A stretch of 64,000 nucleotides of DNA from Schwartzia succinivorans DSM 10502 (GTDB lineage: Bacteria; Bacillota; Negativicutes; Selenomonadales; Selenomonadaceae). Below the pieces are notes generated by a model. That model saw nothing but the letters and a program-made list of their open reading frames with translations, was not told the origin of the DNA and did no database searches. The DNA lies in NCBI RefSeq assembly GCF_900129225.1, contig NZ_FQUG01000002.1, positions 186,001 through 250,000 on the forward strand, written 5' to 3'. Positions 27,962 through 38,923 of the stretch are shown here, in pieces. Position 1 is the first letter of the stretch, and the number at the start of each line of letters is the position of its first letter. The position numbers and the translations under genes were made by a program.

Positions 27962-27990
27962 ATAGTATATCTTAGCTTTGGAGGAAATTT

Positions 27991-28980
27991 ATGAAAACGA
28001 TTTTATATGGATGCGGAAGGAATTTGGAAAAATTTTTTGCAGAATATACTTTAGGACATGATGTGGTTGCGATAGTAGACAGAAATGAAGATAAACACGG
28101 GATATATAAGGGAATAAATGTTATTGGATTAGAACAGTTGAGTAAGCTTGAATTTGATAAGTTGTTAGTTACCATAGATGATTACACAGTTTGTTTGAAT
28201 GATTTAGCGAAGCTGAATATTCCGAATGAGAAGATTAATATTCCTTATCGGGGCGGGCATATGTGGAAAGATGTAAAAATTGTGCCACTCTACGGGGGGG
28301 GGTTAAAGTGCGATTTTGATGGGGTTAAATTCCTTGTAAAAAATAAAAGTGATTTAGGCGTTATGAATAGTATATTTGTTTATAATTCATGGGATTTTTA
28401 CATAAATAAAAAATGTACTGTAATAGATATAGGCATGAATATTGGTCTGGCTAGTTTGTTTTTTGCAAATATGAATATTGTGGATGAGGTGTATGGCTAT
28501 GAACCATTTCCTATGACCTATGAAGATGCATTGAATAATTTTAAATTAAATCCTACGATAAGTCGTAAAATACAAGCGTTAAATTATGGACTGTCTGATA
28601 TAGATTCTACCCTGACGTGCTTATATAATCCTGAGTATACGACAAATATGCGTACTGATAATGAGAAAAGGAAACATGGTTTTAATGAAATAAGTGTAAA
28701 CATTCAATTAAAGGATTCGTATGAAGTTTTAAAAGATATATTAAACACTGATAAAATTACGGTTCTGAAACTGGATTGTGAGGGTGCTGAGTATTCTATC
28801 ATGCGTCGTTTGGATGAAAGTGGATTGTTAGCAAAAATTGATATGATTTTGGCAGAAACGCATGATGGGAAAGAGAATATGTTAAAAGAAATACTAAAGG
28901 ATAATAATTTTATATACTTTGATAATTATGCAGGAGATTATGAACAGTTAGGTTTCTTGTATGCAGTAAAAAATAGATGA
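27991..28980 (+). CDS. FkbM-family methyltransferase with Rossmann module and G9 tract
   Basis: 329 residues. Residues 1-~85 are the island's Rossmann-like module (TILYGCGRNLEKFF...VVAIVDRNEDKHG). Residues ~115-325 are an FkbM-type O-methyltransferase: VIDIGMNIGLASLFFA (SAM loop), YGYEPFPMTYEDAL, VLKLDCEGAEY and LAETHDG. Codons 102-104 are three Gly codons GGG forming a run of nine G at 28294-28302, between the two domains. Loss of one G gives TAA at once and gain of one gives TGA five codons on, so slippage would leave only the Rossmann module. Phase-variable sugar methylation is the likely consequence. Confidence 0.88.
   Translation: MKTILYGCGRNLEKFFAEYTLGHDVVAIVDRNEDKHGIYKGINVIGLEQLSKLEFDKLLVTIDDYTVCLNDLAKLNIPNEKINIPYRGGHMWKDVKIVPLYGGGLKCDFDGVKFLVKNKSDLGVMNSIFVYNSWDFYINKKCTVIDIGMNIGLASLFFANMNIVDEVYGYEPFPMTYEDALNNFKLNPTISRKIQALNYGLSDIDSTLTCLYNPEYTTNMRTDNEKRKHGFNEISVNIQLKDSYEVLKDILNTDKITVLKLDCEGAEYSIMRRLDESGLLAKIDMILAETHDGKENMLKEILKDNNFIYFDNYAGDYEQLGFLYAVKNR
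28294..28302 (+). repeat. poly-G (G9) tract inside coding sequence
   Basis: Nine consecutive G in an otherwise AT-rich gene; the next longest G or C runs I see in the window are six. Located at the interdomain junction of the FkbM methyltransferase, where either single-base slip truncates the protein. Classic layout of a contingency (slipped-strand) locus. Confidence 0.92.
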
Positions 28981-29018: not shown

Positions 29019-30143
29019 ATGAAACTATTAACCGAGGAACAGTTGTTAGGTGTTGTCAAAGGGAAAAAAGTATATATTTATGGTGCGGGAGCAGTTGCTG
29101 ATTTACTTATTAAGAGATTAAAACGCTATGGTGTGGCTATATACATAATTATGGATTCTATAGGAGAATATAGTGAACGGTTGAAAACTAAAGTCAGTAG
29201 ATTTACTGATATTTCTACTCAGATAAATAAAACAGATGTTGTTATAGTGGCTGCAACAGAAAAGGACCACGATGATATAGAAAAGATTTTGAAGGAACAT
29301 GAAATAATCAATTATCATACAATTTCTGACAGATTGTATGTTGTCATGGAGCGCTTGGTTAATAAAAGATTCAAGCTGCAAACACATATAGTTGAACATT
29401 GTAATCTGAAATGTAAAGGTTGTTATCATTTTTCGTCTCTTGCAAAAGAAGAATATTTAGATTTAAAAGAATATGAAAGAGACATAAAACAATTAAGTAT
29501 ATTGTTTGAAGGAAATATAGAGGAAATTCTATTATTGGGAGGAGAACCATTACTTCATCCAGAGGTTGAACAATTCTTTTATATAACAAGGAAGTTTTTA
29601 AAAAAAGGAAAGATAAGGATTCTTACAAATGGTTTATTACTTTTTAAGATGAGTGATGCGTTTTGGGAATCTATTAAAATTACCAATTCAGAGTTATGGG
29701 TAACAAAATATCCAGTGAACTTTGATTACGATAAGGCTGTAGAATATGCTAACACTAGAGGGGTTAAGCTGAGTTTTTTTACTGAAGAACCTGTTAGAAC
29801 TTTGGGACATCAACCTTTGGATTTGGCTGGGAAACGTGATTATATTAATAATTTTCTAGGGTGTTATCGTGCTAATAATTGTATTGATTTGAAGCACGGA
29901 AAGGTTTTTTCGTGTATTATCCCAGCAGAGATAAAACCGTTTTCTGAGTATTTCAATACGGATTTTGAGATAGGGCCTGATGATTATGTAGATATATATG
30001 CTGTCAATTCAGCAGAAGAGTTATTAGAAAAAATGGAAAGACCAATGCCATTTTGTAGGTACTGTAATAGAGACCAAATAGATAGATTTGGAGCGATACC
30101 GTGGAGTCAGACAGAGTATAAAATAGAGGAATGGACTGTATGA
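29019..30143 (+). CDS. radical SAM protein with N-terminal Rossmann module
   Basis: 374 residues. Residues ~15-100: Rossmann-like module (KKVYIYGAGAVADLLIKRL...DVVIVAATEKDHDD). Radical SAM core from ~118: EHCNLKCKGCYHF gives CxxxCxxC at Cys128, 132 and 135; LLGGEPLLHP (GGE motif) and ILTNGLLL follow. The C-terminal region has further cysteines (CYRANNC, VFSCII, FCRYC) suggesting a SPASM/twitch auxiliary [4Fe-4S] cluster. Such enzymes modify peptides or sugars by radical chemistry; here the neighbours argue for a sugar or glycopeptide substrate (inference). AT-rich. Confidence 0.85.
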   Translation: MKLLTEEQLLGVVKGKKVYIYGAGAVADLLIKRLKRYGVAIYIIMDSIGEYSERLKTKVSRFTDISTQINKTDVVIVAATEKDHDDIEKILKEHEIINYHTISDRLYVVMERLVNKRFKLQTHIVEHCNLKCKGCYHFSSLAKEEYLDLKEYERDIKQLSILFEGNIEEILLLGGEPLLHPEVEQFFYITRKFLKKGKIRILTNGLLLFKMSDAFWESIKITNSELWVTKYPVNFDYDKAVEYANTRGVKLSFFTEEPVRTLGHQPLDLAGKRDYINNFLGCYRANNCIDLKHGKVFSCIIPAEIKPFSEYFNTDFEIGPDDYVDIYAVNSAEELLEKMERPMPFCRYCNRDQIDRFGAIPWSQTEYKIEEWTV

Positions 30144-30217: not shown

Positions 30218-31468
30218 ATGGGCATTATGTATAAAGAATATTTTTTACCGGAACAATGGATATTCCCGTTTGAAGATATACCTCGAGGGAAGAAAATTGT
30301 TTTGTGGGGAGCTGGTATAGTCGGAAAACAATATTATGCCCAGTTACAAACAACAAAATGGGCCGAACAAATTTTATGGGTAGATAAAAACTGGAAACGA
30401 TTTAGGTCTATATATGGAGAAAAATGTTTGGTCAATTCTCCTTCAGAAATTGACAAAGATGATTTCGATTATATTGTTATTAGTGTTTCCAGCTCAATGT
30501 GCGCAATTGATATTCGAAATGAAATCATTTCGATGGGGATACCGGCTGATAAAATTGTTTGGTTCCCGTCGCAATCTAAGGTTTTGATGTCAAGTAATCC
30601 ATATATAAATAGATTAATTGAACCGGCATATAGAGAATTTGAAGAAGTTATCAAATGGCAACCAGATAGTAGTCAGGCCACATTTTGGTATGAAAAGATT
30701 ACTGATAAAGAAAACTTTGTTGTGCCACGTCTGGTTGTTGTTTTAACTACTAGGTGTTCATTGAGATGTAATGGATGTAATAATTTAATGCCACTGGTGC
30801 AAAGATATACAGATTTTCCTTGCGAGAAAGTATTATTTTGGATAAATAATTTTTTAAATGCAGCAGATGGTTGTGTAACATTGGAATTGTTAGGTGGAGA
30901 GCCTTTTCTATATAAAGACTTGAATAAAGTTTTAGTAGCATTAATTCAAGAGAAAAAAATACTTAGGGTAGAAATAACAACTAATGGGACTATTGTTCCC
31001 CAAAACGAATTACTTGAACTATTACGTTCACCGAAGTGTTTTATTAAGGTTTCTAAGTATCCGGGTATTAAAAGAACAGAAAAATTCATAGAAACAATTA
31101 AGGAATTTGATATATCACATTTGGTTATAGATGATGTAGATTGGATAGATCCTGGCCCACCAATCAGTCATGGTAAGTCATCTCATAAACTTAAGTACGA
31201 GTATACCAAATGTGGCGCGTCGTATACTTGTAAAACATTGTTAGGAGGGAAAATATATCCTTGTGCGAGAGGGGCTAGCCTCTTTCACTTAGGATATATA
31301 CAAGAATCTACTGCAGAATGTATAGATATAGAGAATAATGATAACTTAAGGGAGAGGATGAGAGATTTTTTCTTAAAAGATACAAGTGTTGTATGTGATT
31401 ATTGTACGATTACTGATTCATGGAGATGCATACAGGCGGGTGTTCAGTGTGAAACACGGGACTGTTAA
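30218..31468 (+). CDS. radical SAM protein with N-terminal Rossmann module (second copy)
   Basis: 416 residues. Rossmann-like module at ~22-115 (KKIVLWGAGIVGKQYYAQL...WVDKN...YIVISVSS). Core from ~170: TTRCSLRCNGCNN gives CxxxCxxC at Cys180, 184 and 187; LLGGEPFLYKD and ITTNGTIVP follow. The C-terminal cysteines (KCGASYTC, IYPCARG, VCDYC, RCIQAGVQC) suggest auxiliary Fe-S clusters. Same architecture as the gene 75 bases upstream, so the pair may act in sequence or as a complex. ATG 30218 or ATG 30227 could be the start. The 354-base gap after it holds a ugd remnant. Confidence 0.84.
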   Translation: MGIMYKEYFLPEQWIFPFEDIPRGKKIVLWGAGIVGKQYYAQLQTTKWAEQILWVDKNWKRFRSIYGEKCLVNSPSEIDKDDFDYIVISVSSSMCAIDIRNEIISMGIPADKIVWFPSQSKVLMSSNPYINRLIEPAYREFEEVIKWQPDSSQATFWYEKITDKENFVVPRLVVVLTTRCSLRCNGCNNLMPLVQRYTDFPCEKVLFWINNFLNAADGCVTLELLGGEPFLYKDLNKVLVALIQEKKILRVEITTNGTIVPQNELLELLRSPKCFIKVSKYPGIKRTEKFIETIKEFDISHLVIDDVDWIDPGPPISHGKSSHKLKYEYTKCGASYTCKTLLGGKIYPCARGASLFHLGYIQESTAECIDIENNDNLRERMRDFFLKDTSVVCDYCTITDSWRCIQAGVQCETRDC

Positions 31469-37776: not shown

Positions 37777-37840
37777 ATTAAGATGTGCGAATGTGTAAAA
37801 TAATTCTTTAAAAATGAATGCTATGTGAAAGGTGTATAAG

Positions 37841-38923
37841 ATGAATATTCCATACCATCAAATAATACTTCAAGAACTGGATAAGATTGATTTAAAAAAG
37901 AAAATAGTGATATATCCTTTTGGAGAGCAAGGAAGGCTTACTAAAAACATTTTAAATGGGTTATACGGTATACAGGAATTTATGATTGTGGACAATTATT
38001 TATCAGAGTCGGAGGAGCGTATAAAATCATTAGAGGATCTTGCCAAAGAAAATTTAGAGGATGTCTTGATTTTAATCGCAAGTGATAGACGTGATATTCA
38101 TGAGGAATTACTACGGAGGCTTTGCGAGATTGTACCGTCGTCAGAGTATAAGGAGTTATTTACTGAATTCACTGGTGAACATGTAAAATATAATCATGGA
38201 TGCAGTCGGGCATTATTTTATAAGATTGATTTAACTGGGATAGAAGAAAATAATATGCAATACAGTCCTTCAAAAACGAAATCTGTATTTTTTTTGCCAT
38301 ACATTTATACGGATTTCATCCAGCAGTTAATATTTATTACAGATGATTACTTTGAAGTGAAAAATTTAAACTATGTATTCAATGAATTTAAAGATGGCGT
38401 GATTCGTGACGAAATTTCTGCCGAAGGAATTTGTATTGATGTTGGAGCAAATATAGGAAATCATACGCTATTTATGGCGAATGAAGTAAATGCGAAAAAA
38501 ATTATTGCTTTTGAGCCTATATATGAAACGTTTAGAATATTAAAAAAGAATATTCGAATCAATGGTTTGGAAGAAAAAGTAATACCTCATAATGTTGGTT
38601 GCGCAGATGTTAAAGGAAATGCGGCATTGGAAAAATATGACTATGAAAATATTGGTGGAACTGGATTGGTACTGAATGACGGCTCTATTCCTTTAATTAC
38701 GTTAGATGATTTTGATTTTGGCGAGGAAGTAAAATTTATAAAAATCGATGTTGAAGGGATGGAACTGTGTGTACTAAAAGGGAGTTCCGAGTTAATTAGA
38801 AAATATCATCCATACATTATGGTCGAATCCTTTTCAAAACAGTCGCGGCAAGTTAAGAATTATTTAAATTCGTTCGGGTATTCATGTGTACAGCTTGATG
38901 ATTCAAATTACTTGTTTTATTAA
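37841..38923 (+). CDS. FkbM-family methyltransferase with N-terminal Rossmann-like module
   Basis: About 360 residues; ATG 37841 (AAAGG eight bases upstream) is preferred over in-frame GTG 37832. Residues ~18-95 are a diverged version of the recurring module (KKIVIYPFGEQGRLTKNIL...FMIVDN...ILIASDRRDIHEE). Residues ~195-360: FkbM methyltransferase with CIDVGANIGNHTLFMA (SAM loop), IIAFEPIYETFRILKKN, VKFIKIDVEGMEL and YIMVESF. A T8 run occurs near 38288. Second FkbM enzyme of the island; the other is at 27991. Confidence 0.87.
   Translation: MNIPYHQIILQELDKIDLKKKIVIYPFGEQGRLTKNILNGLYGIQEFMIVDNYLSESEERIKSLEDLAKENLEDVLILIASDRRDIHEELLRRLCEIVPSSEYKELFTEFTGEHVKYNHGCSRALFYKIDLTGIEENNMQYSPSKTKSVFFLPYIYTDFIQQLIFITDDYFEVKNLNYVFNEFKDGVIRDEISAEGICIDVGANIGNHTLFMANEVNAKKIIAFEPIYETFRILKKNIRINGLEEKVIPHNVGCADVKGNAALEKYDYENIGGTGLVLNDGSIPLITLDDFDFGEEVKFIKIDVEGMELCVLKGSSELIRKYHPYIMVESFSKQSRQVKNYLNSFGYSCVQLDDSNYLFY

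Follow-up and report, generated by a model that had tools for sequence, protein, structure and literature searches.

A run of nine Gs inside an FkbM methyltransferase gene of Schwartzia succinivorans is, judged from its sequence and setting, very probably a contingency locus that toggles a methyltransferase, most likely one for the flagellin glycan, with a gene on contig C14 as a second putative switch. Slipped-strand mispairing at the tract would alter its length by single Gs. Lengths divisible by three would give the complete Rossmann–FkbM methyltransferase (ON, the state in the assembly). Any other length would lead to a stop just after the tract and leave a Rossmann fragment of about 100 residues alone (OFF). 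ON cells would methylate the flagellin glycan of the surrounding cluster and OFF cells would not, so that cells would vary from one to the next. The C14 gene would be an independent switch of like design, OFF in the assembly, that varies the modification of a surface polysaccharide.

The tract, its gene and the flagellin cluster

The gene was analysed within a window of 64,000 nucleotides. Its features are as follows.

27980–27984, forward strand: GGAGG ribosome-binding site, assigned from the sequence
27991–28980, forward strand: Rossmann–FkbM methyltransferase gene, 329 amino acids, open (ON) with nine Gs
27991–28251, forward strand: N-terminal Rossmann-like domain, residues 1–87 of the AlphaFold model, the bulk of the predicted OFF product
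28252–28377, forward strand: interdomain linker of low confidence, residues 88–129 of the AlphaFold model, which houses the tract
28294–28302, forward strand: G9 tract, codons 102–104 (Gly-Gly-Gly), the proposed slippage site
28304–28306, forward strand: TAA that closes the frame at 3k+2 Gs (e.g. 8)
28317–28319, forward strand: TGA that closes the frame at 3k+1 Gs (e.g. 10)
28378–28977, forward strand: FkbM methyltransferase domain, residues 130–329, from profiles and the AlphaFold model

With nine Gs in frame, the tract lies within the range by which poly-G phase variation is recognized (an in-frame homopolymer of at least 7–8 G or C). Frame calculation shows that a change of one base closes the frame and removes the functional domain. 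The G8 version ends in TAA directly after the tract and yields 104 residues, the G10 version ends in TGA five codons past it and yields 109, compared with 329 for the open frame. The predicted OFF product is thus a Rossmann fragment of about 100 residues, whose stability and function are putative. Re-initiation at Met-125 may yield another candidate OFF-state product; inspection of the sequence around this codon revealed no strong ribosome site.

Membership in the FkbM family is supported by two profiles, both scoring above their curated cut-offs: PF05050 (E=2e-10, residues 146–300, 41.5 bits, cut-off 22.7) and TIGR01444 (E=3e-21, residues 143–291, 76.3 bits, cut-off 37.7). The AlphaFold model, built with 31 sequences, has a mean pLDDT of 77.8, falling to about 40 in the linker. 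Its methyltransferase half has the fold of SAM-dependent enzymes, as it matches PDB 2py6 and many other class I methyltransferases. The top structural match, 2py6 (E=4e-11), is an FkbM methyltransferase of Methylobacillus flagellatus. The alignment runs across both domains, whereas identity is only 14% and the TM score about 0.4 over the whole chain. No solved structure was matched to the protein by sequence. Because the model places the low-confidence linker at residues 88–129, the tract would lie in a hinge. Therefore changes by whole codons should be harmless, while one-base changes should remove the enzyme.

The earlier note had described this locus from the letters alone, and its description holds throughout. 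The tract is exactly where it was placed, and both stops follow as predicted. No other G or C run longer than six occurs in the window, the FkbM assignment is borne out by both profiles, and the proposed position between Rossmann part and methyltransferase agrees with the modelled linker.

The gene belongs to a large cluster, which also contains an FkbM gene that serves as an internal control:

99–52067, forward strand: one-strand glycosylation cluster with GT41, GT2, GT1/4, GT8 and GT9/TibC-like genes, aminotransferases and CDP-ribitol-type genes
37832–38923, forward strand: the cluster's other FkbM gene, which has no G tract

An IspD-like cytidylyltransferase is also found in the window part of the cluster. 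Flagellin and FliD genes head the cluster on the same strand, directly upstream of the window and 39 kb upstream of the methyltransferase gene; they are followed by glycosyltransferase genes that run into the window. A glycosyltransferase cluster adjoining flagellin has the layout of a flagellin glycosylation island. With flagellin and FliD at the head of this one-strand glycosylation cluster, the flagellin glycan is, from gene position, the likeliest putative acceptor, and the enzyme probably transfers methyl groups to sugars on the flagellum. The earlier note had proposed switched O-methylation of the surface glycan in general; the likely target is narrowed here to the flagellin glycan, with O-methylation as the putative reaction. 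Two radical SAM proteins (29019–30143 and 30218–31468) adjoin the methyltransferase. Both have N-terminal Rossmann-like parts, and a module of the same kind recurs in both glycan loci, that of the window and that of C14.

Long G runs in the genome

All G7 sites and all sites of eight or more Gs in the genome (2.66 Mb, 20 contigs) were examined as individual loci. There are 20 runs of G7, five of G8, three of G9 and none longer. These counts match a geometric tail, with 2.3 G9 runs expected, and a surplus of G9 runs by length alone was therefore rejected. Shuffles of the window likewise gave 5.4 expected G7 matches, with three seen. GGG makes up 22% of the glycine codons, and among nine Gly-Gly-Gly sites in the window only the one at the G9 tract is written entirely in GGG (p of about 0.01 per site). 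The G7 runs were considered as switches and rejected. They are regarded as background because they occur in frame in ordinary genes, among them those for FliF, an LptF-type permease and an RpoD-like protein (names assigned by sequence inspection), or outside genes.

The non-random signal is which genes bear the tracts, rather than how long the tracts are. FkbM genes hold two of the three G9 runs, and the third is in a repeat-like non-coding stretch (contig C7). The genome has six FkbM genes above the profile cut-off. Given the first G9, simple arithmetic yields a chance of about 0.0024 that one of the other two falls on the coding strand of an FkbM gene. The gene concerned is:

L038:10444–11582 (G000 C14:246443–247581): second Rossmann–FkbM gene with a G9 tract, closed frame

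Its tract is placed as in the window gene, after the Rossmann part. The frame is OFF: 99 residues are followed by an intact methyltransferase in another frame, and the homologues of this gene are mostly single frames of about 350–400 amino acids. It resides in a polysaccharide locus apart from the window cluster, together with genes for an initiating sugar transferase, an AMP-ligase, a carrier protein and SGNH-like proteins.

Of the five G8 runs, two are in autotransporter-like proteins, one is in a phage tail fibre and the remaining two are in promoter-like spacers. The autotransporter-like proteins (1219 and 2279 amino acids; L282:460–4116 and L283:4688–11524, the latter on the reverse strand) carry the G8 in frame in their N-terminal part. 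By eye, their C-terminal ends are typical of outer-membrane barrels; a Pfam search gave no match for either protein. The tail-fibre gene (L005:2401–3600, G000 C15) is of prophage type and also has its G8 in frame. The tract is absent from all four of its relatives on viral contigs.

Tracts in homologues and in a promoter-like element

The comparison material comprised one assembly per species. We searched 151 genomes of the family Selenomonadaceae with the methyltransferase half of the C14 gene and took the 30 best loci regardless of G runs. Tracts of G8–G10 within the gene or at its start are present in 10 of 29 non-self homologues and in 0 of 30 nucleotide-sugar dehydrogenase controls (Fisher p=3e-4); the other 19 fused homologues lack a tract. 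When only tracts within the gene are listed, there are nine (L077, L078, L080, L081, L085, L090, L094, L096 and L097), the tenth being L089, where the tract sits only in the preceding gene. Whether nine or ten are set against 0 of 30, the conclusion is unchanged. For runs of at least nine Gs, the G9 counts of the genomes themselves predict 0.08 in 23 such genes, and six were seen. Among the best TIGR01444 matches, mostly stand-alone FkbM genes, tracts occur in 4 of 29, a weak excess, and the difference in tract frequency between stand-alone and Rossmann-fused genes is not significant (p=0.12).

Both states are represented among the 15 tract genes (window, C14 and relatives including L138 of the Lachnospiraceae), with seven ON and eight OFF. 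In each OFF gene one adjacent class of tract length restores the long frame; L096 is doubtful, as a further stop was flagged. Similar runs in a second gene and in relatives, about half of them OFF, make a random on/off switch very likely. The ON/OFF switching claimed in the earlier note thus gains comparative support, from the OFF paralogue on C14 and the recurrent ON and OFF tracts of the family, while slippage itself is what we infer.

The tract occupies differing glycine codons: a Rossmann loop in L078, the linker in the window gene and C14, the SAM motif in L081 and L097, and a more C-terminal site in L080. This argues for repeated origin and against one inherited tract, so that, by their sequences, the tracts of the Rossmann–FkbM class look as if they arose repeatedly. 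A close homologue of the window protein was found neither in 60 relatives nor in 398 genomes of the phylum (E<=1e-12) nor in genome_contigs.

One relative contains tandem FkbM paralogues (L085:1–3720) with identical G9 tracts and flanks, both closed, which represent a recent duplication. In Lachnospiraceae, G9 runs occur in or beside Rossmann–FkbM genes (L138:2000–2008; L191:956–964 and 1910–1918), one of them with a closed frame. Most records returned by a scan with a conserved alignment (A2) came from other phyla and families; those with G tracts were confined to Lachnospiraceae and Selenomonadaceae. Long G tracts were also noticed by eye near the N-terminus of TonB-dependent-receptor-like proteins of relatives (L062; L065, G13; L070, G11), some of which have closed frames.

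A recurrent promoter-like element with a G run in its −35/−10 spacer is widespread in the family. It has the form TGTCTTGC-G(7–11)-ACA-N7-TATAAT and was located at:

L003:3009–3045 (G000 C14:139708)
L006:3034–3070 (G000 C16:65733)
L050–L056, L106–L135 and L284–L302

Among 121 family genomes, 41 contain its 13-base core, with about 80 occurrences in all, compared with four of the reversed control. In 200 genomes of the class, the 16-base form with G8 is seen only in Selenomonadaceae and one other family, and its control matches none. The −10 box most often lies exactly 10 bases past the tract (34 distinct sites), so that the spacing between −35 and −10 follows from tract length. Genes downstream of the element, named by eye, encode exported, capsule, O-acyltransferase and flagellin-like proteins. 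The element supports, at the level of sequence, a wide use of putative poly-G slippage in the lineage. Such slippage probably constitutes a lineage-wide contingency system of Selenomonadaceae, which would include FkbM genes, some of the autotransporter-like and TonB-receptor-like tracts, and a dedicated promoter element.

Alternative explanations and known systems

The tracts might be a product of chance, neighbouring glycines in a flexible linker simply using GGG, without switching at a useful rate. The geometric fit of the 20/5/3 counts, the share of GGG among glycine codons and the G7 runs in ordinary in-frame housekeeping genes agree with this. It leaves unexplained why two of three G9 runs fall in FkbM genes and one of these genes is OFF, why tracts mark 10 of 29 homologues and none of the 30 controls, and why ON and OFF are about equally frequent; we regard chance as unlikely. 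Homopolymers are prone to sequencing error, and most of the relatives are draft or metagenome assemblies, where miscalls might pass for some OFF frames. In that case the OFF copies would be artefacts of sequencing or assembly, as perhaps would the exact tract length in the window. Such errors would not pile long G runs into one gene class while sparing all controls, and the tracts themselves are anomalous, beyond their frames. Miscalling is thus a very improbable account.

The remaining alternatives accept the tracts and read the closed frames differently. G runs are able to cause slippage of polymerase or ribosome, and a closed frame might still give some product. Under programmed ribosomal frameshifting or transcriptional slippage both products would always be made, without a heritable switch. 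The position, length and frame of the tract vary from gene to gene, which DNA slippage fits better, and we give this explanation little weight. Frames closed in the assembly would also be expected if the C14 gene and the remaining OFF genes were pseudogenes in ordinary decay. This is hardly probable in view of the tract being the sole defect seen: outside it, seven of eight OFF genes (L096 being the doubtful one) keep both frames intact, and one of the adjacent length classes opens the frame fully. A contingency locus remains the preferred reading.

Records of poly-G phase variation come mostly from Gram-negative pathogens such as Campylobacter, Helicobacter and Neisseria. A search of open-access full text for phase variation in Selenomonas, Veillonella or Negativicutes, and for homopolymeric tracts in gut commensals, yielded no report from this lineage. 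By analogy, the closest counterpart of the proposed window switch is the set of Campylobacter poly-G genes, where coding tracts of 7–13 Gs lie in surface and glycan genes and single-base changes close the frame (PMC6321876). The PhasomeIt catalogue of Campylobacter includes SAM-dependent methyltransferases, autotransporters and radical SAM enzymes with G(8–10), and in C. jejuni NCTC 11168 tracts of at least eight were reported variable; the word FkbM is absent from this catalogue (PMC6321876). Campylobacter differs in that it belongs to another phylum and has far more long tracts than this genome. Length variation is known there, whereas the tracts described here come from assemblies alone.

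In Neisseria, according to work cited in PMC5084427, poly-G in glycan genes such as lgt switches translation, and a run of G or C within the promoter spacer of porA and opc tunes transcription. These genes encode glycosyltransferases and porins, not FkbM genes, and the Selenomonadaceae promoter-like element differs in having its own conserved sequence. The flagellin glycosylation islands of Geobacillus resemble the present cluster in that FkbM methyltransferases lie inside a flagellin-linked cluster; poly-G switching of the methyltransferase is not described in the excerpted text (PMC5109656).

That tracts recur at differing glycine codons within a single class of genes suggests that switching evolved repeatedly; selection for switching is presumed. 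If the switches operate as proposed, members of a common oral and gut lineage would switch the methylation of their flagellar and surface glycans at random, which would probably affect phage adsorption and immune recognition.
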